From assembly GCA_030068145.1 (NCBI GenBank), contig JAPJBO010000250.1:62001-126000 (forward strand): a stretch of DNA of 64,000 bases, written 5' to 3'. Source of the DNA: Diplonema papillatum (taxonomy: Eukaryota > Euglenozoa > Diplonemea > Diplonemida > Diplonemidae). Position numbers and translations under genes: made by a program. The first letter of the stretch is position 1. Each line of letters begins with the position of its first letter. The notes under the pieces were generated by a model. It ran no database searches, was not told the DNA's origin, and saw nothing but the letters and a program-made list of their open reading frames with translations. Positions 1,007 through 64,000 of this stretch are shown here, one piece after another.

Positions 1007-3012
1007 CCCCTTACCGACCAGCGACCTCCACAGGGGTCGTTAAATAGCCCATTTCTTAGATATGCCGAAAAGTTGGGACAGGTGTGTCGAAAACAGCTTT
1101 CAAGGGCGGAAATGAAAATATATGTGGCGTATCTCTTTATTCCCGCCCTTGAACCTCGGTAATCCGGCTCCCCCTCGAGGAGTCGACAAGGCGCCGATCT
1201 GACATGACCAGGATTTAGACCCAAACCCCGGAAATCCGGCTCCCCCTCGAGGAGTCGACAAGGCGCCAATCTGACATGACCAGGATTTAGACCCAAACCC
1301 CGGAAATCCCGCTCCCCCCTCGAGGAGTCGACAAGGCGCCAATCTGACATGACCAGGATTTAGACCCAAACCCCGGAAATCCCGCTCCCCCCTCGAGGAG
1401 TCGACAAGGCGCCGATCTGACATGACCAGGATTTAGACCCAAACCCCGGAAATCCGGCTCCCCCCTCGAGGAGTCGACAAGGCGCCAATCTGACATGACC
1501 AGGATTTAGACCCAAACCCCGGAAATCCCGCTCCCCCCTCGAGGAGTCGACAAGGCGCCGATCTGACATGACCAGGATTTAGACCCAAACCCCGGAAATC
1601 CCGCTCCCCCTCGAGGAGTCGACAAGGCGCCAATCTGACATGACCAGGATTTAGACCCAAACCCCGGAAATCCGGCTCCCCCCTCGAGGAGTCGACAAGG
1701 CGCCAATCTGACATGACCAGGATTTAGACCCAAACCCCGGAAATCCCGCTCCCCCCTCGAGGAGTCGACAAGGCGCCGATCTGACATGACCAGGATTTAG
1801 ACCCAAACCCCGGAAATCCCGCTCCCCCCTCGAGGAGTCGACAAGGCGCCGATCTGACATGACCAGGATTTAGACCCAAACCCCGGAAATCCCGCTCCCC
1901 CCTCGAGGAGTCGACAAGGCGCCGATCTGACATGACCAGGATTTAGACCCAAACCCCGGAAATCCCGCTCCCCCCTCGAGGAGTCGACAAGGCGCCGATC
2001 TGACATGACCAGGATTTAGACCCAAACCCCGGAAATCCCGCTCCCCCCTCGAGGAGTCGACAAGGCGCCGATCTGACATGACCAGGATTTAGACCCAAAC
2101 CCCGGAAATCCCGCTCCCCCCTCGAGGAGTCGACAAGGCGCCGATCTGACATGACCAGGATTTAGACCCAAACCCCGGAAATCCCGCTCCCCCCTCGAGG
2201 AGTCGACAAGGCGCCGATCTGACATGACCAGGATTTAGACCCAAACCCCGGAAATCCCGCTCCCCCCTCGAGGAGTCGACAAGGCGCCGATCTGACATGA
2301 CCAGGATTTAGACCCAAACCCCGGAAATCCCGCTCCCCCCTCGAGGAGTCGACAAGGCGCCGATCTGACATGACCAGGATTTAGACCCAAACCCCGGAAA
2401 TCCCGCTCCCCCCTCGAGGAGTCGACAAGGCGCCGATCTGACATGACCAGGATTTAGACCCAAACCCCGGAAATCCCGCTCCCCCCTCGAGGAGTCGACA
2501 AGGCGCCGATCTGACATGACCAGGATTTAGACCCAAACCCCGGAAATCCCGCTCCCCCCTCGAGGAGTCGACAAGGCGCCAATCTGACATGACCAGGATT
2601 TAGACCCAAACCCCGGAAATCCCGCTCCCCCCTCGAGGAGTCGACAAGGCGCCGATCTGACATGACCAGGATTTAGACCCAAACCCCGGAAATCCCGCTC
2701 CCCCCTCGAGGAGTCGACAAGGCGCCAATCTGACATGACCAGGATTTAGACCCAAACCCCGGAAATCCCGCTCCCCCCTCGAGGAGTCGACAAGGCGCCG
2801 ATCTGACATGACCAGGATTTAGACCCAAACCCCGGAAATCCGGCTCCCCCTCGAGGAGTCGACAAGGCGCCAATCTGACATGACCAGGATTTAGACCCAA
2901 ACCCCGGAAATCCCGCTCCCCCCTCGAGGAGTCGACAAGGCGCCGATCTGACATGACCAGGATTTAGACCCAAAACCCCGGAAGAAGTCGAGGGTGCCCG
3001 GTCGGTAAGGGG
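1007..3012. mobile_element. TIR-bounded element carrying the 73-bp satellite
   Basis: CCCCTTACCGACC at 1007-1019 and its perfect inverse GGTCGGTAAGGGG at 3000-3012 bracket the whole satellite block. The outer flanks on both sides are 31-bp motif units, and joining them at a TA or TAA leaves nearly a continuous motif (GGGTTTAAGAGAGAAAG), as expected for insertion into that array with a short TA-type duplication. No transposase is encoded. About 130 bp of non-satellite sequence lies between the left terminus and the array. The call rests on the inverted ends and flank reconstruction; the superfamily is not determined. Confidence 0.6.
1150..2985. repeat. 73-bp satellite array, about 25 copies
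   Basis: The unit reads CTCGAGGAGTCGACAAGGCG, then CCGATCTGACATGACCAGG, then ATTTAGACCCAAACCCCGG and AAATCCCGCTCCCCC. It contains CTCGAG, GTCGAC and GGCGCC palindromes. Central copies (about 1750-2560) are essentially identical, while the outer copies mix variants (CCGATC versus CCAATC; CCCGCTCCCCCC versus CCGGCTCCCCC). Because 73 is not divisible by three, the apparent minus-strand peptides shift frame each unit, so coding is unlikely. Confidence 0.95.
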
Positions 3013-3345
3013 ATAAGAGAGAAAGTTCGCTTGTTATGCTGGGGGTTTAGAGTGAAAGTTTGCTTGACACTCCAGTTTAGAACAAAGGTTAAACCACAAT
3101 TTTGCGCTTGAAACTCTGGAATTCTTCGGGTGGGTTTGAGATTCTAGGGTTTAGAGTGAAAGTTCGCTTGGCACTCCAGTTTAGAACAAAGGTTAAAACA
3201 CAATTTTGCGCTTGAAACTCTGGAATTTTTAGAGTCGGTTTTAGAGTGGAAGCTCGCTTGAAATTCTAGGGTTTTGGAGTGAAAGTTCGCTTGTCACTCC
3301 AGTTTAGAGCGAAGGTTGAAACTCCGGCAAGCTCGAAACTCTGGG
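3013..3345 (+). repeat. 31-bp motif array, right flank of satellite element
   Basis: Copies of TTTAGAGTGAAAGTTCGC followed by TTG resume immediately right of the inverted terminus, including longer blocks (CACTCCAGTTTAGAACAAAGG) also seen at 600-640. This is the continuation of the array at 411-764 that the satellite element interrupts. Confidence 0.8.
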
Positions 3346-5016: not shown

Positions 5017-5213
5017 CGGCTATTTTAGAGTTAACGTTCGCTTGAAATTCCGGGGGTTAGGGTCTCCGTGTGACCGTTCATGAATGGGTTCTCTTAGAGC
5101 AAGAAAGGGCTATGTGGTTACGGGTTGTATATTTAGTGCACGCTTTCGGTATGGGTTATGGCTAGCCATGTCCGGGACTGTTTGTGACCGACACCAAGTA
5201 GATTCCTTCGTGG
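5017..5213 (-). mobile_element. 5'-truncated USP-element copy (3' end only)
   Basis: Matches the terminal ~200 bp of the element at 25335-26880, beginning with the AAGTTCGCTTGAAATTCCGG end and stopping after CCTTCGTGG. Orientation is such that the element's coding strand is minus. It lies immediately after the tandem block and before the fourth zinc-knuckle unit. Confidence 0.75.
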
Positions 5214-5221
5214 CGTAGTCT

Positions 5222-9889: not shown

Positions 9890-12450
9890 TCTATGTTGCG
9901 GATGCGCAGTTGTTGCTTCATCGCCGCCTGCTCACTTCCTCTGTGAGCACACGTTCAGCCGAGGTTGAACCACTTGAACCTGTCTGCTTGTGGCTGGTTC
10001 CAGGTTTCGTGACATGCAAAACCAAGTTGCAGACGTGCAGCGATCGCTTCGGTTGCTCTCGACATGCAAAAAACTACGTTCCGGATGCGCAGTTGTTGCT
10101 TCATCGCCGCCTGCTCGCTTCCTCTGTGAGCACACGTTCAGCCGAGGTTGGACCACTTGAACCTGTCTGCTTGTGGCTGGTTCCAGGTTTCGTGACATGG
10201 GTCCACCGGCCCCGCGGCAGCGTTTACCAAAAAGACACAAGGTTTTGACCCTGCATGATATCTCTTGTCTCGGACCAAGTAAACAATGTCTGATTCCACT
10301 GATTCCGACTCACTGGTTCGAAATCCGCTGGCTCCGTGACAAGAACAGATTTCGTCGCGGACCCGGAGCCCGATCACGAGCCTGAGGCTCGTGAAGGCCC
10401 GATGAATCTTGATGCAAAACCAAGTTGCAGACGTGCAGCGATTGCTTCGGTTGCTCTCGACATGCAAAAACTACGTTCCGGATGCGCAGTTGTTGCTTCA
10501 TCGCCGCCTGCTCACTTCCTCTGTGAGCAAACGTTCAGCCGAGGTTGAACCACTTGAACCTGTCTGCTTGTGGCTGGTTCCAGGTTTCGTGACATGGGTC
10601 CACCGGCCCCGCGGCAGCGTTTACCAAAAAGACACAAGGTTTTGACCCTGCATGATATCTCTCGTCTCGGACCAAGTAAATAATGTCTGGTTCCACTGAT
10701 TCCGACTCACTGGTTCGAAATCCGCTGGCTCCGTGACAACAACAGATTTCGTCGCGGACCCGGAGCCCGATCACGAGCCTGAGGCTCGTGAAGGCCCGAT
10801 GAATCTTGATGCAAAACCAAGTTGCAGACGTGCAGCGATTGCTTCGGTTGCTCTCGACATGCAAAAACTACGTTCCGGATGCGCAGTTGTTGCTTCATCG
10901 CCGCCTGCTCGCTTCTTCTGTGAGCACACGTTTAGCTGAGGTTGGACCACTTGAACCGGTCTGCTTGTGGCTGGTTCCAGGTTTCGTGACATGGGTCCAC
11001 CGGCCCCGCGGCAGCGTTTACCAAAAAGACACAAGGTTTTGACCCTGCATGATATCTCTCGTCTCGGACCAAGTAAATAATGTCTGATTCCACTGATTCC
11101 GACTCACTGGTTCGAAATCCGCTGGCTCCGTGACAACAACAGATTTCGTCGCGGACCCGGAGCCCGATCACGAGCCTGAGGCTCGTGAAGGCCCGATGAA
11201 TCTTGATGCAAAACCAAGTTGCAGACGTGCAGCGATTGCTTCGGTTGCTCTCGACATGCAAAAACTACGTTCCGGATGCGCAGTTGTTGCTTCATCGCCG
11301 CCTGCTCGCTTCTTCTGTGAGCACACGTTTAGCTGAGGTTGGACCACTTGAACCGGTCTGCTTGTGGCTGGTTCCAGGTTTCGTGACATGGGTCCACCGG
11401 CCCCGCGGCAGCGTTTACCAAAAAGACACAAGGTTTTGACCCTGCATGATATCTCTCGTCTCGGACCAAGTAAATAATGTCTGATTCCACTGATTCCGAC
11501 TCACTGGTTCGAAATCCGCTGGCTCCGTGACAACAACAGATTTCGTCGCGGACCCGGAGCCCGATCACGAGCCTGAGGCTCGTGAAGGCCCGATGAATCT
11601 TGATGCAAAACCAAGTTGCAGACGTGCAGCGATTGCTTCGGTTGCTCTCGACATGCAAAAACTACGTTCCGGATGCGCAGTTGTTGCTTCATCGCCGCCT
11701 GCTCGCTTCTTCTGTGAGCACACGTTTAGCTGAGGTTGGACCACTTGAACCGGTCTGCTTGTGGCTGGTTCCAGGTTTCGTGACATGGGTCCACCGGCCC
11801 CGCGGCAGCGTTTACCAAAAAGACACAAGGTTTTGACCCTGCATGATATCTCTCGTCTCGGACCAAGTAAATAATGTCTGATTCCACTGATTCCGACTCA
11901 CTGGTTCGAAATCCGCTGGCTCCGTGACAACAACAGATTTCGTCGCGGACCCGGAGCCCGATCACGAGCCTGAGGCTCGTGAAGGCCCGATGAATCTTGA
12001 TGCAAAACCAAGTTGCAGACGTGCAGCGATTGCTTCGGTTGCTCTCGACATGCAAAAACTACGTTCCGGATGTGCACTTGTTGCTTCATCGCCGCCTGCT
12101 CGCTTCTTCTGTGAGCACACGTTCAGCCGAGGTTGGACCACTTGAACCTGTCTGCTTGTGGCTGGTTCCAGGTTTCGTGACATGCAAAGCTCTCCACGTT
12201 TCGCGACATGCAAAACTACGTTCCGGATGTGCACTTGTTGCTTCATCGCCGCCTGCTCGCTTCTTCTGTGAGCACACGTTCAGCCGAGGTTGGACCACTT
12301 GAACCTGTCTGCTTGTGGCTGGTTCCAGGTTTCGTGACATGCAAAGCTCTCCACGTTTCGCGACATGCAAAACTACGTTCCGGATGTGCAGTTGTTGCTT
12401 TGTGGCCGCGCCGCTCACTTCTTCTGTGATCACGTTCGGCCAAGGTTGAA
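9890..12450 (+). repeat. 397-bp tandem array with 158-bp sub-units
   Basis: ACTACGTTCCGGATGCGCAG recurs every 397 bp (10064, 10461, 10858, 11255, 11652, 12049) and then every ~158 bp (12208, 12365). The 397-bp unit equals the 158-bp unit plus a ~239-bp insert starting GGTCCACCGGCCCCGCGGC. Units 3-5 are nearly identical. The insert carries a perfect CACGAGCCT/AGGCTCGTG hairpin and a B-box-like GGTTCGAAATCC. Plus-strand peptides (for example MSDSTDSDSLVRNPLAP, or FVADPEPDHEPEAREGP in another frame) are short and frame-shifted between units, so I do not call genes. Confidence 0.92.
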
Positions 12451-12567: not shown

Positions 12568-12782
12568 CTTTTTTAGAGTTAAAGTTTGCTTGAATTTCCG
12601 GGGGTTTAGGATCTCCGTGTGACCGTTGTGTTAAATGGGTCTCTTAGAGCAAGAAAGCTATATGGTTATGGGTTGTGTATTTGGTGCACGCTTTCGTTCT
12701 GGGTTTTGGCTAGCCGTGTCCGGGACTGTTTGTGACCGAGTACATTCCTTCGTGAAGTAGTCTTGGGCCCCCCACGTTCTAC
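12568..12782 (-). mobile_element. 5'-truncated USP-element copy
   Basis: Begins with the standard end (AAAGTTTGCTTGAATTTCCG) and runs to CCCCCCACGTTCTACAAG, where homology to the 25.3-kb element stops. Diverged by several substitutions and small deletions. Confidence 0.75.
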
Positions 12783-12799
12783 AAGTACTTTTTTTGCAA

Positions 12800-14099: not shown

Positions 14100-14426
14100 G
14101 ATTTTAGAGTCTCCGGGTGATCTTCGTCGAATGGGTTATTTTAAAGCTGATACGTACTGGGTGGGTTTGGGGGGGCGGCATGCACGGCTTCGCGGGTTGG
14201 GTGTCGGGCTTTTAGCGTCTCCGGGTGATCTTCGTCGAATGGGTTATTTTAAAGCTGATACGTACTGGGTGGGTTTGGGGCATGCATGGGGTCTCCGTGT
14301 GACCGTTGGAAAAGGTTTAAGAGCAAGAAAGGGCTATATGGTTACGGGTTGTGTATTTGGTGCACGCTTTCGGTATGAGTTATGGCTAGCCATGTCCGGG
14401 ACTGTTTGTGACCGACACCAAGTACC
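14100..14426. repeat. 110-bp tandem pair plus USP-element 3' scrap
   Basis: TTTTAGAGTCTCCGGGTGATC followed by TTCGTCGAATGGG appears at 14103 and again about 110 bp later. From 14288 to about 14426 the sequence switches to the USP element's internal 3' region (GTCTCCGTGTGACCGTT to GACCGACACCAAGTAC). Confidence 0.7.
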
Positions 14427-14769
14427 ACACTCTTATTGTGGAAATGACACGTGACTTTACGCGTTATGCCAAGATGCCAGAAACGTGTTAACATGTGATC
14501 ACACGGGTTTTTACTGTGTCCTGTGCTACGTCTTTTCACATCCTGTGCCACATGTTAATAGCACGTGAAACCCTGGAACATGCTTCGGACTCTGTCAACG
14601 ATAAGGTGCGTTCGCTCAAGCCGTCGCAAAAGCATACCTCTCTCCTTCTTCTTGTGCAGCCGCGAGCGTGAGGCAGAAGACGGCGATAAGGAGCAGCAAG
14701 GCGCACCATGTCGACATCGGATTTCTCCCACCCCCGCTGGTCGCTTTAGACTACCTGCTAGGTGTGCTG
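14427..14769. other. Unassigned spacer
   Basis: About 340 bp between the USP-element scrap and the 48-bp satellite. No recognisable gene or repeat was seen; it contains short open frames only. Confidence 0.4.
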
Positions 14770-17620
14770 AATCCGTAGATGTAACTTGCTGAGACTAGCT
14801 GTCTGTTGGGTGCTGGTACCGTGTATGTAACTTGCTGAGATTGGCTACCTGTTGGGCGTGCTGAAACCATAGATGTAACTTGCTGAGACTAGCTGTCTGT
14901 TGGGTGTGCTGGTACCGTGTATGTAACTTGCTGAGATTGGCTACCTGCTGGGCGTGCTGAATCCATAGATGTAACTAGCTGAAATTAGCTGCCTGTTGGG
15001 TGTGCTGAATCTATAGATGTAGTTTGCTGAGATTGGCTACCTTTTGGACGTGCAATCCAAGGATGTAACTTGCTGAGAATTAGCTGCCTGTTGGGTGTGC
15101 TGAATCTATAGATGTAGCTTGCTGAGATTAGCTGCTTGTTGGGTGTGCTGGTACCGTTTTTGTAACGTGTTGAGATTGGATGCCTGTTGGGCATGCTGAA
15201 TCCGAAGATGTAACTTGCTGAGACTAGCTGTCTGTTGGGTGTGCTGGTACCGTGTATGTAATTTGCTGAGATTGGCTACCTGTTGGGTGTGCTGAATCTA
15301 TAGATGTAGCTTGCTGAGATTAGCTGCTTGTTGGGTGTGCTGGTACCGTTTTTGTAACGTGTTGAGATTGGATGCCTGTTGGGCATGCTGAATCCGTAGA
15401 TGTAACTTGCTGAGACTAGTCTGTTGGGTGTGTTGAATCCGTAGATGTAACTTGCTGAGACTAGCTGTCTGTTGGGTGTGCTGAATCCGTAGATGTAACT
15501 TGCTGAGACTAGCTGTCTGTTGGGTGCTGGTACCGTGTATGTAACTTGCTGAGATTGGCTACCTGTTGGGCGTGCTGAAACCATAGATGTAACTTGCTGA
15601 GACTAGCTGTCTGTTGGGTGTGTTGAATCCGTAGATGTAACTTGCTGAGACTAGCTGTCTGTTGGGTGTGTTGAATCCGTAGATGTAACTTGCTGAGACT
15701 AGCTGTCTGTTGGGTGTGTTGAATCCGTAGATGTAACTTGCTGAGACTGGCTGTCTGTTGGGTGTGTTGAATCCGTAGATGTAACTTGCTGAGACTAGCT
15801 GTCTGTTGGGTGTGTTGAATCCGTAGATGTAACTTGCTGAGACTAGCTGTCTGTTGGGTGTGTTGAATCCGTAGATGTAACTTGCTGAGACTAGCTGTCT
15901 GTTGGGTGTGTTGAATCCGTAGATGTAACTTGCTGAGACTAGCTGTCTGTTGGGTGTGTTGAATCCGTAGATGTAACTTGCTGAGACTAGCTGTCTGTTG
16001 GGTGTGTTGAATCCGTAGATGTAACTTGCTGAGACTAGCTGTCTGTTGGGTGTGTTGAATCCGTAGATGTAACTTGCTGAGACTAGCTGTCTGTTGGGTG
16101 TGTTGAATCCGTAGATGTAACTTGCTGAGACTAGCTGTCTGTTGGGTGTGTTGAATCCGTAGATGTAACTTGCTGAGACTAGCTGTCTGTTGGGTGTGTT
16201 GAATCCGTAGATGTAACTTGCTGAGACTAGCTGTCTGTTGGGTGTGTTGAATCCGTAGATGTAACTTGCTGAGACTAGCTGTCTGTTGGGTGTGTTGAAT
16301 CCGTAGATGTAACTTGCTGAGACTAGCTGTCTGTTGGGTGTGTTGAATCCGTAGATGTAACTTGCTGAGACTAGCTGTCTGTTGGGTGTGCTGGTACCGT
16401 GTATGTAACTTGCTGAGATTGGCTACCTGCTGGGCGTGCTGAATCCATAGATGTAACTAGCTGAAATTAGCTGCCTGTTGGGTGTGCTGAATCCATAGAT
16501 GTAGCTTGCTGAGATTAGCTGCTTGTTGGGTGTGCTGGTACCGTTTTTGTAACGTGTTGAGATTGGATGCCTGTTGGGCATGCTGAATCCGAAGATGTAA
16601 CTTGCTGAGACTAGCTGTCTGTTGGGTGTGCTGGTACCGTGTATGTAATTTGCTGAGATTGGCTACCTGTTGGGTGTGCTGAATATAGATGTAGCTTGCT
16701 GAGATTGGCTACCTTTTGGACGTGCTGAATCCAATGATGCAACTTGCCGAGGACTAGCTGCCTGTTGGGCGTGCTGAATCCATAGATGTAGCTTGCTGAG
16801 ATTAGCTGCTTGTTGGGTGTGCTGAATAACTTGCTGAGATTAGCTGCCTGTTGGGTGTGCTGGTACCGTTTTTGTAACGTGTTGAGATTGGATGCCTGTT
16901 GGGCATGCTGAATCCGAAGATGTAACTTGCTGAGACTAGCTGTCTGTTGGGTGTGCTGGTACCGTGTATGTAATTTGCTGAGATTGGCTACCTGTTGGGT
17001 GTGCTGAATATAGATGTAGCTTGCTGAGATTGGCTACCTTTTGGACGTGCTGAATCCAATGATGCAACTTGCCGAGGACTAGCTGCCTGTTGGGCGTGCT
17101 GAATCCATAGATGTAGCTTGCTGAGATTAGCTGCTTGTTGGGTGTGCTGAATAACTTGCTGAGATTAGCTGCCTGTTGGGTGTGCTGGTACCGTTTTTGT
17201 AACGTGTTGAGATTGGATGCCTGTTGGGCATGCTGAATCCGAAGATGTAACTTGCTGAGACTAGCTGTCTGTTGGGTGTGCTGGTACCGTGTATGTAATT
17301 TGCTGAGATTGGCTACCTGTTGGGTGTGCTGAATATAGATGTAGCTTGCTGAGATTGGCTACCTTTTGGACGTGCTGAATCCAATGATGCAACTTGCCGA
17401 GGACTAGCTGCCTGTTGGGCGTGCTGAATCCATAGATGTAGCTTGCTGAGATTAGCTGCTTGTTGGGTGTGCTGGTACCGTTTTTGTAACGTGTTGAGAT
17501 TGGATGCCTGTTGGGCATGCTGAATCCGAAGATGTAACTTGCTGAGACTAGCTGTCTGTTGGGTGTGCACCGTGTATGTAACTTGCTGAGATTGGCTACC
17601 TGTTGGGCGTGCTGAACCCA
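14770..17620. repeat. 48-bp satellite array with 325-bp higher-order units
   Basis: The core unit is TTGAATCCGTAGATGTAACT, then TGCTGAGACTAGCTGTCTG, then TTGGGTGTG. It is homogeneous from about 15600 to 16390. The flanks mix at least four diverged 48-bp types. On the right side TGCTGAATCCGAAG recurs at 16581, 16906 and 17231 (325-bp higher-order period) and at 17518 after a shortened unit. The total is about 59 monomers. The period of 16 codons leaves two minus-strand frames open in the core, but variant monomers carry stops. Confidence 0.95.
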
Positions 17621-25334: not shown

Positions 25335-26880
25335 TGCTGGTTTTAGAGTTAAAGTTCGCTTGAAATACCGGGGTTTTAGGGTCTCCGTGTGACCGTTCAT
25401 GAATGGGTTCTCTTAGAGCAAGAAAGGGCTTTGTGGTTTCGGATTGTATATTTAGTGCATGCTTTCGTTATGGGTTATGGCTAGCCATGTCCGGGACTGT
25501 TTGTGACCGACACCAAGTACATTCCTTCGTGGAGTGTAATCTTGGGCCCCCCACGTTCTACAAGTTGAGCAGGGGTTGCCTTGTAGCCCGTACCGGTCTG
25601 TTGTCCGCGTTTTTATGTATTTTCTCGTAGAGTAGTGCTTGGGTTTCGCGACATTTGCGGTGCTTCACGTAGTGCGGGTTGCTTCCGCCCTAATATAAGG
25701 TTTTTTTTGGGTAGATTTGCTGGGTAAAACTGTTCGTTGCTCGCCACAGTTAAGGCACTCTGGGCACACTGGGTACCCGTGGTTAGTGAGGTTATTCGTC
25801 TGATGTAGTCGTCGTTGCTGTGCGTCGTTTACAGTGCTTCTTTTTACACCAGGGCTTATGGTGGCGTAGACTTTTGAAGCGTGGTTTCCCCACGGTTCGT
25901 CCGTCGCTGTGGCAGTAGGGACATCTATCTCGTTTCTGGGTGGTGCTTCGCAGCGTTGTTTCTGTTTGTGACTTAGTTCTGGGTGGTTTCTTCTTGCAGT
26001 AACGTAGGTGCGTCCGTAATCCTTGTTTTCCCTTCAGTTTGAGGCCGGTTGTTGTTGTGCGTGTGTGGCAGTGGGGACATCGTAAGTCGTCTTCACTGCT
26101 GGTCTCTGTTTCCGCGGTGGTACTGGAGGTCTGTGACGTGCCTGGTGTTGTGGGTGTTCGTGTGGGGGGTGTGCTGTCGTGTCGTTGTGTGGGTGTGTCG
26201 GTAGATGTCTCGTCTCCGCGCATAGCTCTAAGTATGCTTTGAGTCGAGTCCGGCTCTTGTGTTGTGGTTCTGGGCGTGGCAGGCTTTGGGGGTTCATAGT
26301 GGTTGTGGTATGATGGGTCAATGGGTGGAGGGACACCTGTCTGTGGGTTGTCTTTGAGCTGGTAGACGCAGAGGTATACTTCGTTGTCGGTGTAGTTTTG
26401 CGTCGAAGTGGAGTGCGTCTGTAGTCCGTCGAAGCGAGTCCAACGTTGGTTAGCGTCGATATCGTTGAGGGCGTGAATGACGTAGTGCCCGGCGTTGTTG
26501 TGGCCGGAGTGTACTGCTACGGCTTTGAGTATGAGTGGTGTGTTTTGTCCTGGAAGCGTGATAGAGTGGTCGGCGCGTATAGCGGTACGGTTCGTCGCTT
26601 GGCGTCTACGGGCTCTTTGAAGCTGGATCAACAGCATTGAATTAATGCGGTGAAATGTTGTTGTTGCGAGGGTGGTATCGGTGATTTTGCAGACTTCGCA
26701 TCTGTAGTCGGCGGCGGGGCCAGGTTTGATGTGATTGTTCAGGCACCGTTGGATCGAGTTGTCGATTGGTGGTAGGAAGGTTATGTCGTGGTCTTCGGGT
26801 GGGTTGGTTTTGAGGGAGAAAAAGGTAAGAACTCTTTTTGCGGTGGCCTCCGCTGAACGTGGTTAGCACAAACTCAAGAG
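25335..26880 (-). mobile_element. USP-element, most complete copy
   Basis: Bounded on the left (its 3' end) by the 31-bp-motif terminus AAGTTCGCTTGAAATACCGG. At least six other copies share that end but stop at different interior points: 5017-5213, 12568-12782, 14288-14426, 37283-37575, 40845-41344 and 49085-49689. A common 3' end with variable 5' ends is the signature of target-primed reverse transcription. The copy contains about 450 bp of 3' untranslated region and the protease/zinc-finger ORF. The upstream limit is blurred: sequence to the right matches other dispersed repeats. Confidence 0.75.
25792..26862 (-). CDS. USP (peptidase C19) C-terminal half fused to two C2HC zinc fingers
   Basis: The frame is open from just below a TAA at 26863-26865 to a TAA at 25792. 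An ATG at 26637 is the first Met, but protease homology begins upstream of it, so the copy is probably 5'-truncated. Before the Met: YRCEVCK (finger-type CxxC) and a hydrophobic MLLIQLQRA strand. After it (numbering from that Met): LILKAVAVHSGHNNAGHY around residues 36-52 with the His-box GHY (His51), then RWTRFDGL (65-72) and VYLCVYQLK (87-95), which is the canonical order of the USP C-terminal lobe. A Thr/Pro/acidic linker (100-184) leads to CPHC..H..C (187/190/210/214) and CPYC..H..C (239/242/260/264) and a basic end. The Cys box with the nucleophile is absent. By homology it would be a deubiquitinase; activity cannot be expected from this copy. Confidence 0.72.
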   Translation of the reverse strand, partial: PRSAEATAKRVLTFFSLKTNPPEDHDITFLPPIDNSIQRCLNNHIKPGPAADYRCEVCKITDTTLATTTFHRINSMLLIQLQRARRRQATNRTAIRADHSITLPGQNTPLILKAVAVHSGHNNAGHYVIHALNDIDANQRWTRFDGLQTHSTSTQNYTDNEVYLCVYQLKDNPQTGVPPPIDPSYHNHYEPPKPATPRTTTQEPDSTQSILRAMRGDETSTDTPTQRHDSTPPTRTPTTPGTSQTSSTTAETETSSEDDLRCPHCHTRTTTTGLKLKGKQGLRTHLRYCKKKPPRTKSQTETTLRSTTQKRDRCPYCHSDGRTVGKPRFKSLRHHKPWCKKKHCKRRTATTTTSDE

Positions 26881-26923: not shown

Positions 26924-27620
<697 letters not shown>

Positions 27621-37282: not shown

Positions 37283-37575
37283 GCTTATTAGAGTAAAAGT
37301 TCGCTTGAAATTCCGGGTTTTTAGGGTCTCCGTGTGACCGTTCATGAATGGGTTCTCTTAGAGCAAGAAAGGGCTAAGTGGTTACGGGTTGTATATTTAG
37401 TGCACGCTTTCGTTATGGGTTATGGCTAGCCATGTCCGGGACTGTTTGTGACCGACACCAAGTACAATCCTTCGTGGAGTGTAGTCTCGGGCCCCCCACG
37501 TTCTACAAGTTGAGCAGGGGTTGCCTTGTAGCCCGTACCGGTCTGTTGTCCACGTTTTTATGTATTTTCTCGTAG
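37283..37575 (-). mobile_element. 5'-truncated USP-element copy
   Basis: Very close to 25335-25630, ending at GTATTTTCTCGTAG. It contains only 3' untranslated sequence. Confidence 0.85.
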
Positions 37576-37944
37576 ATTGCCCTTGCTTTTTCTGTCAATG
37601 TCTGGTCCCGCGTGTCGCACGGCACGCACGTTGCACTCGCAAAGGGGCTTCAGAAACGCGGGTCTCATCAACCCTGGATGAGACCAACTAGCATGTGGTG
37701 AGTGGGGGTGAGGGTGAGGGGTGGAACTGCTGTTATTGGTAAAAGTAAGAAATCTTTTTTGCTCCGCTGGCCCGGTAGTTTGTGCTAGCCGCCAACTTCT
37801 TTTACTCTCGTTCTCTTCTCTTGTCACTACTGTACGTACTCTTTCACTCTTTTTCTCACTTTGGCTAGCCAAAAAAAGACTCCTGTGACCGACACCACGA
37901 ACACATTCGCAATGAATGTGGCCCTCGGCCACCCCACGTGCATA

Positions 37945-38410
37945 CATGTTGAGCATTGAGTTCTGTTGAGGACATGAACCACATGGAATAGCATGCACAT
38001 GTTGAGCATTGAGTTCTGTTGAGTACATGAACCACATGGAATAGCATGCACATGTTGAGCATTGAGTTCTGTTGAGTACATGAACCACATGGAATAGCAT
38101 GCACATGTTGAGCATTGAGTTCTGTTGAGTACATGAACCACATGGAATAGCATGCACATGTTGAGCATTGAGTTCTGTTGAGTACATGAACCACATGGAA
38201 TAGCATGCACATGTTGAGCATTGAGTTCTGTTGAGTACATGAACCACATGGAATAGCATGCACATGTTGAGCATTGAGTTCTGTTGAGTACATGAACCAC
38301 ATGGAATAGCATGCACATGTTGAGCATTGAGTTCTGTTGAGTACATGAACCACATGGAATAGCATGCACATGTTGAGCATTGAGTTCTGTTGAGTACATG
38401 AACCACGTGG
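37945..38410. repeat. 53-bp satellite, about 8.5 copies
   Basis: The unit is GCATGCACATGTTGAGCATT, then GAGTTCTGTTGAGTACATGA, then ACCACATGGAATA; GCATGC starts at 37991 and 38044. All minus frames are open across it, and because 53 leaves remainder 2 modulo 3 each frame encodes the same 53-residue period (a 159-bp cycle). Confidence 0.95.
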
Positions 38411-38411
38411 A

Positions 38412-38591
38412 ATGGTGTACCCCACAAAGCGCCAAACCCTCGACCAAGCGACCTTTTCCCAGATGCTCGACGCCCTCTCGATGAAACGGGTGCTCGCCCA
38501 CGCCCTCGACCCAGAAGCACGAAGGTGGCGAGGCTGCAGGATGCCCTTTATCGTCGAATTCTACTCCGAAGCAACGCCGGTGCACAACTAG
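38412..38591 (+). CDS. Small 59-codon ORF inserted in the 53-bp array
   Basis: ATG to TAG frame beginning MVYPTKRQTLDQATFSQMLD and ending FYSEATPVHN. It replaces part of one satellite monomer: the left flank is CCACGTGGAAT (like CCACATGGAAT) and the right flank is CTAGCATGCACATGTTGAGC. GC content is higher than the array. The start and stop may be fortuitous and the piece could be a captured exon. The family is not recognised. Confidence 0.3.
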   Translation: MVYPTKRQTLDQATFSQMLDALSMKRVLAHALDPEARRWRGCRMPFIVEFYSEATPVHN

Positions 38592-39749: not shown

Positions 39750-40844
39750 GTCTCTCTTTTCAGAGTGAAAGCTTCGGTTTCTTCTAACTCCAGCTTCCGG
39801 AGCCACTCGGGTGACCTTCCGGCAGATGAGGGCGGGGAGGGAACGACTTACTTCTTTCTAGAGTACAGAGAAAGTTCGATTGAGGATCCGGGGCTTCAGA
39901 GTCTCCGGGTGACCATCGTGGAAAAGGTTCCTCTGTGGGATCGTAAACTTAGGCGTGCTTAATTTATTTTTGTTGCTAGCGGTGTGTGCATGTTCGTGTG
40001 TGAGTGTGTCTCTTTGTTGTCTGTTGCCGACTATTCGAGTTTTTTTATTTATTCGCAGCATTGACAAAGATGGTGGGAAGGAGGTAAAAGGCACGTTTTC
40101 CTGGGCGCGTGTCTTCACGGAAGTCCTTTTTTAGAGTGAAAGTTCGCTTGAAACTCCGGGGTTTTAAAGTCTCCGGGTGACCTTCGTCGTTGTGGGAAGA
40201 TATCCTTTGTGCTCTGAGTGTCGTAAGAGTGGTGGTTACACGAGGTAAGAGGATCGGTGGGTACGTAGTTGTTGGTCATTGGTGGTTTCGGCCATTGTCC
40301 GTACCTTACTTACGGTAGGCCCTCCTCAGTATGGAGCCGCAGTAGGTGACTGTCTGTCTTCTTCACTGTTTTTTTTTTTCTTTCCTGTTGAACCACCTCC
40401 AGAACACAGCCAGTACACCCTAGATGGGTACAATGGTACCGACCTGTCAATAGTCCACCCACACCAAAGTAGTCTTTCGGCCGCTCCCAGAGACTGAAAT
40501 CTCGAAAGGGAGTTTCTGCTCTTCGTATTCGAACCGTACCACTTACGGCCGACTCACGCGGTCGGTTTGCCGAATGCCGCTTTCTCTCCGTGTACGGAAA
40601 AGGTCGCGTTGGCAGAAACGGTGAAGATGATAATTGTCACAGGGTTGGTGAAATGAAAGCGAGAATTTGGAGTAAGCCCTGATTATTAGATTCGCGGTTA
40701 AACGAAGCTAGCGCACAAGGTTTGCCTGATCTCGCACCTACTTTCCGATACCAAATAGATGCTCTATTCAAACTCGGAGTGTTGCCCCTGGGTTTGCGCC
40801 AGGTGGCCCCACGAGTGTGCACAAAACAGCAGAGAAGATTATAT
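39750..40844. other. 31-bp motif copies and unassigned sequence
   Basis: Motif copies with the GTCTCCGGGTGACC continuation lie at 39862-39930 and 40130-40190; the first continues like 53440-53600 (TTGCCGACTATTCGA). 40200-40840 has no supportable gene. Confidence 0.5.
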
Positions 40845-41344
40845 TTTTAGAGTTAAAGTTCGCTTGAAATTCCGGGGTTTTAGGGTCTCCGTGTGACCGT
40901 TCATGAAATGGGTTCTCTTAGAGCAAGAAAGGGCTATGTGGTTACGGGTTGTATATTTAGTGCACGCTTTCGTTATGGGTTATGGCTAGCCATGTCCGGG
41001 ACTGTTTGTGACCGACACCAAGTACATTCCTTCGTGGAGTGTAGTCTTGGGCCCCCCACGTTCTACAAGTTGAGCAGGGGTTGCCTTGTAGCCCGTACCG
41101 GTCTGTTGTCCGCGTTTATATGTATTTTCTCGCAGTGTGGTGCTTGGATTTCGCGGCGCTTGCGGTGCTTCACGTGGTGCGGGTTGTTTCCGTCCTAAAA
41201 TAAGGTTTTTTTTGGGTAGATTTGCAGGGTAAAACTGTTCGTTGCTCGCCACAGTTAAGGCACTCTGGGCACACTGGGTACCCGTGGTTAGTGAGGTTAT
41301 TCGTCTGATGGAGTCGTCGTTGCTGTGCGTTGTTTACAGTGCTT
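40845..41344 (-). mobile_element. 5'-truncated USP-element copy reaching the ORF end
   Basis: Homology runs from the motif end through GGGCACACTGGGTACCCGTG to CGTTGTTTACAGTGCTT, so it includes the 3' untranslated region and only the last ~17 codons of the zinc-finger ORF. The stop region differs by point changes (TCTGATGGAGTC instead of TCTGATGTAGTC). Confidence 0.85.
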
Positions 41345-49084: not shown

Positions 49085-49689
49085 ACTTTTTTAGAGTTAA
49101 AGTTCGCTTGAAATACCGGGGTTTTAGGGTCTCCGTGTGACCGTTCATGAATGGGTTCTCTTAGAGCAAGAAAGGGCTTTATGGTTACGGATTGTATATT
49201 TAGTGCATGCTTTCGTTATGGGTTTTGGCTAGCCATATCCGGGACTGTTTGTGACCGACACCAAGTACATTCCTTCGTGGAGTGTAATCTTGGGCCCCCC
49301 ACGTTCTACAAGTTGAGCAGGGGTTGCCTTGTAGCCCGTACCGGTCTGTTGTCCGCGTTTTTATGTATTTTCTCGTAGAGTAGTGCTTGGGTTTCGCGAC
49401 ACTTGCGGTGCTTCACGTGGTGCGGGTTGCTTCCGCCCTAATATAAGGTTTTTTTTGGGTAGATTTGCTGGGTAAAACTGTTCGTTGCTCGCCACAGTTA
49501 AGGCACTCTGGGCACACTGGGTACCCGTGGTTAGTGAGGTTATTCGTCTGATGTAGTCGTCGTTGCTGTGCGTCGTTTACAGTGCTTCTTTTTACACCAG
49601 GGCTTATGGTGGCGTAGACTTTTTGAAGCGTGGTTTCCCCACGGTTCGTCCGTCGCTGTGGCAGTAGGGACATCTATCTCGTTTCTGTG
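49085..49689 (-). pseudogene. USP-element copy with a frameshifted second zinc finger
   Basis: Near-identical to 25335-25945. It retains the second C2HC finger (RDRCPYCHSDGRTVGKPRF, then SLRHHKPWCKKKHC), but an extra T in a T-run at about 49622 puts the two halves in different frames. The upstream break follows CTATCTCGTTTCTG, so the protease, linker and first finger are missing. Confidence 0.8.
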
Positions 49690-49759
49690 TGAGTGTTTTT
49701 GGAAACACTTTTCTTGTGTAGCCACTTGTCGTGGCAGATTCTAGTGCACCGATTGTACT

Positions 49760-60146: not shown

Positions 60147-63100
60147 CTACGGCGGGCGTAAGTCGCTCCGGAGGCGCGCTGCAGGTTGCGGCTCTGCTAC
60201 AGTGAGTGGCGGCACCGGAGTTGGTGCTGCAGCGGGCGCTCTGGCCGGCGGGCGAGCTCGTCTCGCGGGGGATCGCCGCCTTGTAACGCTGCGGGCCCTC
60301 TTCTGCCTCGCGACTGCGCGGCCTACGGCGGCGGCTAACACCTTGATGGGAAACTTCAGCTTCCATTGAGCGAAGGCTACGTCCTGAGGGTACACGGGTT
60401 TGGCGTCATTCCAGCTGTCTTTGGAGCAAACTGCTACTATGCCGTTTAACATCGCCTCTGTCCTCCGTCCAGCCGCAAAACGTGGACGGTGTGTGAATCC
60501 CGGCATTGCCGGCGCACCCAGACAGCGTAAAGAGCATACACCCTGACGCCACTTCCCGGGGAAGGCTGAGGCCCCCGTGTCAGCAAAGCTTAGGTCGTTG
60601 ATGGCTCGTGTTAGATATCCTATCTGCAACCCTTTTTCGGCAAACGTTTCCCCAGGCAGCTTGGATCGCGTGTAGGCCTCAAAATCCAAAGCGAGTTCCA
60701 CGCCGGTCGTAGGGAGAGGGGGGGTGTTGACCCAACGTAGATTCCTTAGCCAGTAGACTAGCGTCGCCGCGAAGCGCGTCCCGATCTGCTTCGTGAGGAG
60801 CTCACGGCTGTCCCTTGCCAGCTCAACGTCATATCTCCCTGCCGCGGCGGAGGCAAGCTCCCAGGGGCGCGTCGTCGCGATATTACGCTGCGCTTGCGCC
60901 ATCTCGATGGAGATGGTCCCGATCAGCTTCTGGACCCTCTCCACGAGTACCGGCGGGGTTCCGATGGGGGGAATCCCCCGTGTGCTCAGGCATAGGGGCA
61001 TATTCTGTGCCGCCACTCCTGCGACGTCGAGTCGGCAACGTAGATTGACCCACCTGCCCCCCGGTCCCGGGCATTCCCAGAAATAGTGCAGCAGGGTCCC
61101 CGGCGTCCCACCGTCGCAGAACTCGCATACGCCGTCATCCGTTCCCCATTTTCTGTTGCACCACTCGCGAGAGTACACCGCTCCTGCGATGCATTTGCGG
61201 ATTGCAAAGCTGAGCCTGTCCTCCGTCGCGCGGTTCTGCCACAGTCTGTTCAGCAGGCGCACATCCACCCCCCTCTCGATACCCGAGTAGCCTTGCCTTT
61301 GTGTCGTCAGGTAGCGCCACGCTCGAAGACGCAGGCCCTCACGGACGAAGTGCAGTGTCTCCTTCCCGGAAAAAGGCACGGTCGCACCTTCGAACGATAG
61401 CAACTCGAAACTGTGCCGCTTCGCCGGCAGGAAACGTATCTCTCGAAGGAGATTGGATATCAGCCCGACGGGGCCCTTTAAGGAGGCGTCAGCCCCGGAT
61501 ACAAGAAGGGCATCCATTCGCAGCCGAAACCTCTCCTTCTGGTATTGCTTCGCGGCGGTGCGGAGTGAGCTGTACCCGGAGGCGCATGCCGGATCGCACA
61601 AGTGCGCCTTCGCAACAAGGGTAAGTGTCGCGAGGGGGCTCTTCGCCCGATTTGAGCGAGGAATCAAGCAGGCGGAGAGAGCCGTGCGAAGGACGGAGTT
61701 GTTCGCAAAGCCACCGGCCGAGTTGGCGCAGTAGGCCGCGCCGTAGTGCGCGGATGCCGCGATCGTCTGCATGACGCGGAACTTGGTGCGCGGCTTCAGT
61801 GGCGACGCTTCCAGCCTGGCTGCGGCTTCCACGGTCGCGTCAGACCTACCGTTGTCCACAGGCCCTTCTGTGCCCAGGGGAACGCCCAGAACCTTAACGG
61901 TCTTCACCGACTTCACCGCCTTGCCTCCAACCTCGAGACGGGGGCCTTTTTCCGACGTCGAGAAGGAGGCACACTTGCCTTCGTTGAGAGCGAGGCCGGT
62001 CAGACTCCCGAATATCGCGGTGACTTCTATTCCTTCCTGGAGCAGCTTCGCGAGTCGCGAGAGGAGGTACAAGTCATCAGCAAAGGACTTCGGACTCACT
62101 CGTGCCCGGCTGACCAGGGCTTTCGAGAGCACGGACAGAAGGGCGTTGATCAGGACCACGGAGATAGGGCAGCCTTGGAGGATGCCGTTCGTGACCTTGA
62201 ATTCATCGCCCACTCCCAGCGGGTACTTAAAACGACGTCTGAGGTACTTATAGACGTGGCGCAGCGGCGCCAGCACACGCTCATGCAGCCCCAGAGCCTC
62301 AACTAGGTCGAGTACCAAACCTTGTGGAACGCGGTCAAAACATTTCGCAAAGTCGAGCGCGATCCCATGTAGCGGCGTTCCGTTAATAAGGGATTCCTCT
62401 ATCGACAGCGCGATGTCCATGACGACGTCGTCGCAGGAGTGGCCTTTCCGGAAGCCATGTTGAGACTCGTGTATCCACTGCTCTTGCCAGACAAGAACCT
62501 CCTGCAGACGCACACTAGCCCAAAGACGATAAACGACACTGGAGACGGTGATGGGCCGCAGCTTCAGGGGGTCATCTCCTTCTCCCTTGGGAATCAGGGT
62601 GACTAGCGCGTCTAGAACCCCGTCGGGCCATAGGCCCGTCTCCTCGACTTCGTTCAGTACTGCAGCAAACCCTTCCAGGATTGTGTCCGGCAGGGCCGCA
62701 ACTTCTCGCATGCGCCAGCCGTCCACGCCGCATGACGATTGCACACCTTTCTTCCTCGCTATCGACCGTAGGCGGTCGGCCGTGATGGGGCCCAGTTGGC
62801 ACGGGTGTTGCGCAATAAAGTCACCATATTCTCGCAGGAAGGGGGCGAACTCGGGTTCCTTTTTCCCGGCATACATGCGTAGCACGGGGTCCCACTTCCT
62901 CCTTACCGTCGCGTCAACTTCCACCAAGTTCGCCGTGAGTCGCCCGTCGCGACCGTTCGTAAAATAGAATGTCGGCGGCGCCTCCTTCTTCACCCAAGCA
63001 AAAGACTCCTTACCCAGAGGGTTACGGAGCTCGCGCTGACACCTTGCGATTTCCAGGTACCTCGAATTTAACGTAGTCTGGGCCAGGCTCTGGCACACGT

Positions 63101-64000
63101 CCGAGATAGTGTGTGATAGGCCCCGCGCGGCCTTCGCCGATGGCGGTATCAGTGGCAAAGCACACTTCCCGTCCGTACGCTGGAGGATGAAGCTTTGAAA
63201 CGACCGTATTTTGTCCCACTGCCCTTTGAGCAGGAGCGACAACGGGCACGGGGCGCTGGACATATCCTCCCATTTGGCTCGTGCGGCCGAGTATTCCCGC
63301 ATGCGTCCGAGAAGACACCTGGCTCTCTTCAGAGGTGCGGTGTCGGCCCCCGCACCCTCCGGGGACGGCCTCGCGGACACGCGCTGGGTGCTCAGCCTCC
63401 GCCGCTCTCCTCGCCCGCGGTAGGCCGCCAGGTTACCCTCAATCTTGGACTTCTGGAGCAGATAATCCTCCGCCGCCCGCGAGATACGCAGCCAGAGAAA
63501 ATCCACCCTCTGGCTGTCTTCTAGTCCGCGGGGGCACGGGTCGGCGAGTCGGTATTTCGCGACTACAGCTTTGAGAGCTGCGGTGTCGGTACGGTCAGTC
63601 AGACCGGATCCAGGGATGGCACGGGGGAAGCGGAACACCGCGTTAAGTTGCTGGAAAGCGGTGAGGTGAAGCTCAGCTCGAATCGCCTTATGTGTCGGGA
63701 ACCCGGCCTCGAAGGTTTCTACGTTTCCAAGAGCGGAAGAGGCGATTTCGTTGGTAAGCACAAGGTCAATGCGTGACGGCTCCCCGTGGTAGCAGGTGTG
63801 CTCCGGAGGCCTGCTCAGGGACTTCGCGTGAAGCTCGGCACAGTCAGTCCACCCGTTTCGCAGTGCGAAGCGTAGGGCAGGAGAGTTCAGAGGGTCTGTG
63901 TTCAGGTCACCTGCAACTACAATCGGTACCGCGCCCAGGCGCCGGCGCATGCCCCAGAGAACCCCCTCGACCAACTTCTCACGTTCAATCCGAGCCGAGT
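60147..64000 (-). CDS. Non-LTR retrotransposon polyprotein (EEP endonuclease, RT, CCHC), runs off the window
   Basis: Open to the window edge, at least 1283 codons. N-terminal visible part is the end of an apurinic-type endonuclease: VVAGDLNTDP (63.9 kb), SRIDLVLTNE (63.77 kb) and FPTHKAI (63.69 kb, replacing the usual SDH with THK). RT follows: VTLIPKGEGDDPLKLRPITV, QHGFRKGHSCDDV, LDFAKCFDRV (motif A, 62.34 kb), NGILQGCPIS (motif B), SFADDLYLLS (motif C, 62.07 kb) and LNEGKCASF. A CCHC finger CEFCDGGTPGTLLHYFWECP is at 61.07-61.13 kb, then VELALDFEAYT and HRPRFAAGRRTEAML, shared with the 57.5-kb protein, and a basic tail ending RSDLRPP. No RNase H is recognised. The frame is intact within the window, so the element may be active. 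Confidence 0.92.
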   Translation of the reverse strand, partial: SARIEREKLVEGVLWGMRRRLGAVPIVVAGDLNTDPLNSPALRFALRNGWTDCAELHAKSLSRPPEHTCYHGEPSRIDLVLTNEIASSALGNVETFEAGFPTHKAIRAELHLTAFQQLNAVFRFPRAIPGSGLTDRTDTAALKAVVAKYRLADPCPRGLEDSQRVDFLWLRISRAAEDYLLQKSKIEGNLAAYRGRGERRRLSTQRVSARPSPEGAGADTAPLKRARCLLGRMREYSAARAKWEDMSSAPCPLSLLLKGQWDKIRSFQSFILQRTDGKCALPLIPPSAKAARGLSHTISDVCQSLAQTTLNSRYLEIARCQRELRNPLGKESFAWVKKEAPPTFYFTNGRDGRLTANLVEVDATVRRKWDPVLRMYAGKKEPEFAPFLREYGDFIAQHPCQLGPITADRLRSIARKKGVQSSCGVDGWRMREVAALPDTILEGFAAVLNEVEETGLWPDGVLDALVTLIPKGEGDDPLKLRPITVSSVVYRLWASVRLQEVLVWQEQWIHESQHGFRKGHSCDDVVMDIALSIEESLINGTPLHGIALDFAKCFDRVPQGLVLDLVEALGLHERVLAPLRHVYKYLRRRFKYPLGVGDEFKVTNGILQGCPISVVLINALLSVLSKALVSRARVSPKSFADDLYLLSRLAKLLQEGIEVTAIFGSLTGLALNEGKCASFSTSEKGPRLEVGGKAVKSVKTVKVLGVPLGTEGPVDNGRSDATVEAAARLEASPLKPRTKFRVMQTIAASAHYGAAYCANSAGGFANNSVLRTALSACLIPRSNRAKSPLATLTLVAKAHLCDPACASGYSSLRTAAKQYQKERFRLRMDALLVSGADASLKGPVGLISNLLREIRFLPAKRHSFELLSFEGATVPFSGKETLHFVREGLRLRAWRYLTTQRQGYSGIERGVDVRLLNRLWQNRATEDRLSFAIRKCIAGAVYSREWCNRKWGTDDGVCEFCDGGTPGTLLHYFWECPGPGGRWVNLRCRLDVAGVAAQNMPLCLSTRGIPPIGTPPVLVERVQKLIGTISIEMAQAQRNIATTRPWELASAAAGRYDVELARDSRELLTKQIGTRFAATLVYWLRNLRWVNTPPLPTTGVELALDFEAYTRSKLPGETFAEKGLQIGYLTRAINDLSFADTGASAFPGKWRQGVCSLRCLGAPAMPGFTHRPRFAAGRRTEAMLNGIVAVCSKDSWNDAKPVYPQDVAFAQWKLKFPIKVLAAAVGRAVARQKRARSVTRRRSPARRARPPARAPAAAPTPVPPLTVAEPQPAARLRSDLRPP

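Follow-up and report, generated by a model that had tools for sequence, protein, structure and literature searches.

A retrotransposon family of Diplonema papillatum that resembles permuted Penelope-like elements and carries a ubiquitin-specific protease domain

The window analysed here, a 64,000-nt stretch of the Diplonema papillatum genome, contains a minus-strand frame that is open from 26812 to a stop codon at 25792-25794, with an ATG-initiated ORF at 25792-26637 (281 aa). An earlier note on this DNA had read in it the signatures of a ubiquitin-specific protease (USP) in order, then a Thr/Pro linker and two fingers of the form CPxC..H..C, and all of these are present in the frame: YRCEVCK, VAVHSGHNNAGHY, RWTRFDG and VYLCVYQLK, followed by the linker and both fingers. 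The span then proposed, 25335-26880, holds for the element copy at 25341-26812 and fails for 26813-26880, which is flank. The description of seven copies with one end in common and the other end differing is also correct: there are seven minus-strand copies with a shared 3′ end and varied 5′ ends. The features are as follows (EN, endonuclease; RT, reverse transcriptase).

25341-26812, minus strand: 5′-truncated copy of the USP-bearing retrotransposon, family A; 1472 bp, 26812 being the 5′ break and 25341 the 3′ end
25795-26812, minus strand: open frame equivalent to residues ~1675-2013 of the 2013-aa frame of copy L010; without EN, RT or catalytic Cys
26353-26812, minus strand: C-terminal half of the USP domain, with the second CxxC (CEVC), the catalytic His (GHY) and the third residue, Asp (RWTRFD)
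25996-26079, minus strand: first C2HC finger, CPHC..H..C (motif)
25846-25923, minus strand: second C2HC finger, CPYC..H..C (motif)
25380-25394, minus strand: conserved 3′-tail hairpin, GGTCACACGGAGACC; four pairs kept in 10/10 aligned tails
49088-49691, minus strand: 5′-truncated copy, 98.8%
40844-41344, minus strand: 5′-truncated copy, 95.4%
37284-37576, minus strand: 5′-truncated copy, 94.9%
5023-5216, minus strand: 5′-truncated copy, 93.3%
12570-12786, minus strand: 5′-truncated copy, 85.1%
14290-14425, minus strand: 5′-truncated copy, 87.9%; the alignment ends short of the exact 3′ end

The copy at 25341-26812 was compared with eight longer copies of family A, over 1451-1474 aligned bp, and with two of subfamily B; identity is 99.5-99.9% to the former and 95.4% to the latter. 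This copy is a dead element: EN, RT and the catalytic Cys are missing because it begins at residue ~1675, past Cys 1558. In the profile comparison with the C19 family that had been suggested, Pfam UCH (PF00443) matches the 281-aa ORF at E = 1.1e-4 over profile positions 199-254 (22.4 bits, slightly below the curated cut-off of 23.9) and a long copy at 1.1e-11. Six of the seven window copies have 3′ ends within two bases of one position (the seventh alignment stops ~40 bases short), the 5′ breakpoints all differ, and five more places with shorter matches (41-81 bases) are other tails or fragments. The hairpin pattern of the 3′ tail (≤1 mismatch) occurs 15 times in the window against 0.04 expected.

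All 15 hairpins lie on the minus strand, as does a LINE-like ORF at 60150-63974; extra tails in 12 other loci, some of them perhaps inside the element's own 3′ region, are on the same strand in six cases and on the opposite strand in one. There is perhaps a strand bias of insertion or survival relative to polycistronic transcription. The ORF at 60150-63974 is a 1275-aa frame which, judged by its matches to RVT_1 (9e-21) and Exo_endo_phos (5e-5, just below cut-off), is a LINE with an AP-type endonuclease. A long (CTA)n microsatellite at 26925-27190 is situated ~110 bases upstream of the copy at 25341-26812 and does not abut it; microsatellites are favoured by permuted Penelope-like elements. 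Tandem arrays occupy 1147-3123 (period 73), 14714-16900 (48), 37838-38473 (53) and 10069-12368 (397 bases).

When the D. papillatum assembly (271 Mb, 2910 contigs) was searched with the DNA query, the best 40 scored of 2685 candidates were 95-100% identical: the element is a high-copy retrotransposon in this genome. The longer copies that such a query was expected to find do exist, with complete USP, RT and endonuclease. Among the ten longer stretches of the element that we examined, the longest intact frames are of 2013 aa (L010) and 2040 aa (L012); among other copies, from the EN-RT search of the genome, frames reach up to 2762 aa. In L010, a single frame encodes in order a Pro-rich N-terminus, a GIY-YIG domain (residues 596-635; Pfam E = 0.0053, below cut-off), a CxC linker, an RT (motifs including FIDD at residue 1306), a whole USP (UCH at 1554-1824, E = 1.1e-11, profile positions 6-254 of 254) and two C2HC fingers. 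The earlier note had predicted that the full-length parent would carry the Cys box, which we find as TTNSCF at residues 1554-1559 (catalytic Cys, 1558), and possibly an RT upstream; the longer copies have both an RT and a GIY-YIG endonuclease upstream in the same frame. A dispersed retroelement family, as was foreseen, is what these longer multi-copy relatives with EN, RT and USP in one frame amount to. A single-copy host gene with repeats confined to its 3′ UTR was rejected, given the many copies found by DNA, EN-RT and USP searches, and a chance ORF was rejected on conservation. In one copy the element's N-terminal region is built of tandem repeats that code for Pro/Thr-rich units and are spaced by roughly 190 bases (L017:1172-3167).

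Seven families (A and C-H; one locus each for C-H) have RT and USP in one frame, their RTs being 36-86% identical between families. With EN-RT as query, 53 of 716 candidates were scored and fell into identity groups of ~100, 98-94, 84 and 60%, with one at 73%. In the Pfam UCH search of the genome, the best 149 scored of 935 candidates are all above cut-off and 0/14 control genomes are positive; 34 rows, mostly occurring once, score above the repeats, 54 lie at 85.3-85.9 bits and 41 at 76.5 bits, and the frame is exactly 1562 aa long in 13 and exactly 1585 aa in 12. The USP search also recovered 13/13 rows of the EN-RT search that have 2210-aa frames and 5/5 of its C-family rows. The series EN-CxC-RT-USP-fingers lies in one open frame in families A, C and D, and likewise, with one finger, in G. 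In families C (L040) and D (L039) the stretches examined each contain one frame, of 1984 and 2132 aa respectively, that spans EN, RT, USP and fingers; for E (L047) and F (L046) the stretches examined contain RT and USP and end before EN, CxC and fingers; G (L048) and H (L049) have a Penelope-like RT and a USP with one finger, the EN being cut in L049. Scores of the G/H type account for 95 rows of the UCH search, two loci of which were examined (C253, C205).

UCH is above cut-off in A, in C (2.3e-9), D (8.9e-14), E (2.4e-16), F (1.1e-7), G (5.7e-23) and H (1.1e-20), and in P0001, a SLACS-type protein described below; the match reaches the last profile position in A, D and E, and 232-240 of 254 in C, F, G, H and P0001. 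GIY-YIG is above the Pfam cut-off in D (1.9e-5) and G (1.1e-4) and below it in A (0.0053) and C (0.018). The CxC between EN and RT reads CAC in A, C and D and CPC in G and H, and over EN-CxC-RT families A and G align at E = 2.9e-123, with 32% identity over 980 columns.

The putative RT is identified by ordered motifs (DK, HDF..MYT, GIPMG.NAS.D.AN, FIDD and FLG). Its matches to RVT_1 are weak (A, 0.12; D, 0.11, and 0.026 as best of three; E, 0.056), the Pfam scan gave no RVT_1 match in C, F, G or H, and one of three members matches PADLOC Drt4, presumably an RT, at 0.0076. No relative of EN-RT was found among 5.8 billion proteins (8000 candidates scored per search), viral contigs likewise gave no relatives, and the PDB gave chance matches only, so that Penelope-like membership rests on domain order and motifs. 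Chlamys-type Penelope-like elements are characterised by the combination of an N-terminal GIY-YIG, a CxC linker and the loss of the CCHH motif, and the Diplonema layout appears to resemble that of the permuted Penelope-like elements Chlamys and Naiad, reportedly described by Craig et al. in 2021. The likeness to LINE or SINE copies that the earlier note had claimed does not stand, and such an origin was rejected: the EN and RT are of different types, the element appearing to be Penelope-like with an N-terminal endonuclease, its RVT_1 matches at 0.026-0.12 or absent and its RT unlike the SLACS-type RT in profile comparison. A hammerhead ribozyme was also rejected, because five loci (45705 bases) gave no Rfam match at gathering scores.

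Copies in the genome and in the window alike are 3′-coterminal and 5′-truncated, and the 3′ ends examined read CTCTAA with some additional A's, beyond which the flanking sequences are unrelated. Families A, B, C and D and other copies have the final ~70 bases in common, and the 4-bp hairpin in the ten aligned tails includes one compensatory change. Flanks were compared for 17 copies, including a reference (L012) without a 5′ flank; direct repeats stand at the copy ends in 2 of the 16 copies with flanks: copy L015 lies between perfect 168-bp direct repeats, and the copy at 40844-41344 has a direct repeat (40 bp aligned, 95%) on both sides, which adjoins its 3′ end but stops ~14 nt before its 5′ end. 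Longer flank repeats that fail to touch both ends also occur at L010, W25341, W40844 and W5023, that of W5023 (148 bp) being part of a tandem array. The flanks of the other copies gave short matches only.

Several observations bear on whether the USP is functional. The catalytic Cys, His and Asp/Asn and both CxxC/CxC pairs are kept in 7/7 families, the alignment places the triad in P0001 too, and the Cys box is canonical (GLPNLGNTCF) in G and H. A profile of four USPs matches 89 PDB sequences at E ≤ 0.01, the best being USP36 (2.4e-12), from the Cys box to the end. Between the young subfamilies A and B the USP is under purifying selection: its dN/dS is 0.079 (bootstrap interval 0.028-0.168), with 0.054 for EN, 0.035 for RT, 0.32 for the linker before the USP and 0.39, with a very wide interval, for the fingers. 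The corresponding values for USP and RT are 0.147 and 0.045 between A and C (dS 1.2 and 2.1) and 0.31 and 0.034 between D and E (dS 1.7 and 3.1, near saturation); the G-H value for the USP is 0.107 (dS 2.8, near saturation). From its sequence, the element USP is likely to have deubiquitinase activity. Furthermore, in a search with the D-type USP at least 29 of the 134 scored matches agree with the query at every one of its 292 residues, which indicates recent activity.

A protein search with the element USP found three proteins (P0001-P0003) among 1732 candidates, all from Diplonema papillatum, and P0001 and P0003 bear the NCBI product name 'SLACS'. P0001 matches RVT_1 (5.2e-20) and UCH (2.7e-7), Pfam reports no GIY-YIG in it, and in a profile comparison its RT does not resemble the Penelope-like RT (hhalign 0.2%, both profiles being shallow). 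Its USP stretch has full-length 100% matches, at the top score, in at least 18 genome places (120 scored of 723 candidates). Past the USP, a C-terminal region at ~2130-2324 (WGWAALNWLAVAHG...) has no Pfam match at E ≤ 0.1. Many SLACS-type matches lie near contig ends; telomere-directed elements were rejected, telomeric repeats being present in 0/5 contig starts examined, and two of these five begin with, or soon reach, long poly(T), that is, a poly(A) tail where the assembly breaks.

The SLACS-type USP is 48-51% identical to the USPs of A, C and F and 33-35% identical to those of D and E. Because the USP:RT distance ratio is 1.7-2.8 in 20/21 family pairs (and 2.0-2.1 against EN-RT for A, C and D), the USP offers a clock that is rough but usable; on that clock the SLACS-type USP, at a distance of 0.78-0.84 from A/C/F, split after D and E did (1.1-1.4). 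In a 16-row USP tree, {A, C, F, SLACS-type} has support of 100/99; the tree left out four of nine USP loci (L056, L057, L058 and L061), which failed the motif filter, together with the 70% SLACS-type family, and it includes one of the three SLACS-type proteins, P0002 and P0003 lacking the His part. Forcing A, C, D, E and F together without the SLACS-type USP costs 15.5 log units (AU p = 0.024), or 17.6 log units (p = 0.00096) with one long host row removed, and uniting all element USPs in one clade gives a borderline result (p = 0.0497), these p-values flattering the result because the groups were named after the identities were seen. A clade of A, C and F without the SLACS-type USP is not rejected (p = 0.098), so that the exact place of the latter is unsure. 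Bearing in mind that it branches inside the Penelope-like USPs, the domain has probably moved between retroelement classes. Alternatively, each class would have acquired a similar host USP by itself, or both would have drawn on one source, without any exchange between them. In favour of this are the single SLACS-type sequence in the tree, the modest p of 0.024 for 16 rows, the naming of groups after the fact and the surviving A, C, F clade; yet the contrast in identity between A/C/F and D/E and the order of splits on the rough clock both speak against this account, which we regard as improbable.

Movement between classes may have been accompanied by exchange among the Penelope-like families. 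D and E (L039 and L047) have RTs that are 84% identical and USPs that are 42% identical (USP:RT distance ratio 5.7); from this contrast, and from dN/dS of 0.31 vs 0.03, it follows that either constraint is uneven or the USPs were swapped. As the AU test does not reject a D+E USP clade (p = 0.42), it is the distance ratio by itself that hints that D or E exchanged its USP. We also observed a 702-aa frame (L062:902-3007; G000:C9:543900-547500) that combines a metallo-β-lactamase (MBL) domain (Lactamase_B 3.2e-8, above cut-off) with UCH (6.5e-32), and the USP of this frame is 55% identical to that of family G. The label of L060 as a host USP is doubtful, L060 being an MBL-USP frame, and since the G and H USPs group with it they may represent a separate capture. 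The 702-aa frame, which is seemingly low-copy, may be a domesticated piece or the source of the element USP. With slightly less than an even chance, in our estimate, USPs are portable counter-defence modules of diplonemid retrotransposons, swapped among Penelope-like families, passed to an unrelated non-LTR class and related to an MBL-USP gene; if so, one would suspect that hosts of this lineage use ubiquitin to defend themselves against retrotransposition.

We hypothesize, and consider it rather probable, that a Penelope-like retrotransposon with an N-terminal GIY-YIG took in a USP as a working part of its polyprotein, where it guards the element's own RT/RNP. The EN would nick the target, the RT would prime on the element's conserved 3′ tail (hairpin and CTCTAA), the C2HC fingers would bind nucleic acid, and the USP, working in cis, would strip the element's own RT/RNP of ubiquitin and thereby shield it from proteasomal removal during integration. 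Such cis-protection of the retrotransposition complex would be the most likely role for the USP. A less likely role, to which we give perhaps one chance in four, is that the USP acts at the integration site, on chromatin components or on repair factors (H2B-ubiquitin, as for Ubp8 in SAGA, or PCNA), so as to clear the site or bias repair: chains that we take to be SAGA-type Ubp8 are among the PDB matches, with USP7 and USP36, and the putative nucleic-acid-binding fingers after the USP could place it on DNA, but the resemblance to Ubp8 is that of USPs in general, its profile E of 1.1e-11 to 7e-11 being no better than those of USP36 or USP8, and no targeting partner is known. The USP might instead cut the polyprotein so as to release EN, RT and fingers, as the pol proteases of other retroelements do; the great length of the single frame (up to 2762 aa) would suit such a function, and Pfam reported no other protease domain in the scanned frames. 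However, USPs recognise ubiquitin, not short peptides, and Pfam reported no ubiquitin-like fold in the scanned frames, which leaves this reading quite improbable. We rank lowest the reading of the USP as a passenger, picked up from the host by accident (3′ transduction) in a single lineage and then multiplied by hitch-hiking. Host DNA can indeed travel with retroelements (PMC6431247, in the part available), and the MBL-domain frame encodes a USP akin to the G/H one, but seven families with divergent RTs have the USP (RT families without it may have been missed, because families were partly found via the USP query), catalytic residues are kept in all seven, and the A-B dN/dS is 0.08.

We have documented the anatomy and conservation of the USP-bearing element and the selection on it, and its EN-RT-USP-finger layout is, on good support, a new architecture. 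A search of the literature (open-access papers, subscription papers being mostly outside it) found no USP-bearing retrotransposon, and in the open-access literature we found no Penelope-like element in a diplonemid, the search giving a trypanosomatid paper; our findings suggest that Penelope-like elements are present in Euglenozoa. For D. papillatum, the available part of the genome paper lists retrovirus-related, LINE-1, SLACS and R2/jockey elements and some DNA elements (PMC10161547). A USP-class deubiquitinase would join the known cargo of retrotransposons, and a single genome has the USP module in two retroelement classes that are unrelated to each other. A testable question emerges: do ubiquitin marks limit retrotransposition, and do elements counter with a deubiquitinase of their own?

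Compared with Chlamys and Naiad, the Diplonema element has the same N-terminal GIY-YIG, CxC linker, RT motif set and 3′-coterminal copies, and, as in Chlamys, no Cys pair between GIY and YIG; it differs in its added C-terminal USP and C2HC fingers and its very long Pro-rich N-terminus, and it has no database sequence match. Canonical Penelope-like elements have a single ORF with RT and GIY-YIG, and target-site duplications (PMC3846280, in the part available). The SLACS-type proteins of the same genome share the C-terminal USP (whole in P0001); unlike the Penelope-like element, they have an RVT_1-matching RT without profile similarity to its RT, and Pfam detects no GIY-YIG in them. Cellular USPs (USP36, USP8, Ubp8, USP15 and USP7) have the same USP layout, triad and zinc Cys pairs, whereas the element USPs are fused to a retrotransposon, share 12-27% identity with three USPs encoded by this genome and have in A-F a Cys box, NSC/NTC, without the preceding Gly, that of G and H being the canonical GNTCF. 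The Burro giant Gypsy elements of planarians are likewise retrotransposons with extra domains that their authors tie to ubiquitination, but they are LTR elements, with MATH/RING-type domains and no USP named in the part of the paper available (PMC6431247). Helitrons and Helentrons, as far as the available part of the paper goes, are DNA transposons with domains of the OTU or VTD fold, VTD activity having been measured there and the USP being known here from sequence; what they have in common with the Diplonema element is a deubiquitinase in the element's main protein with its active-site residues kept, and for the OTU and VTD domains of Helitrons the authors suggest protection of transposition proteins (PMC9741609).
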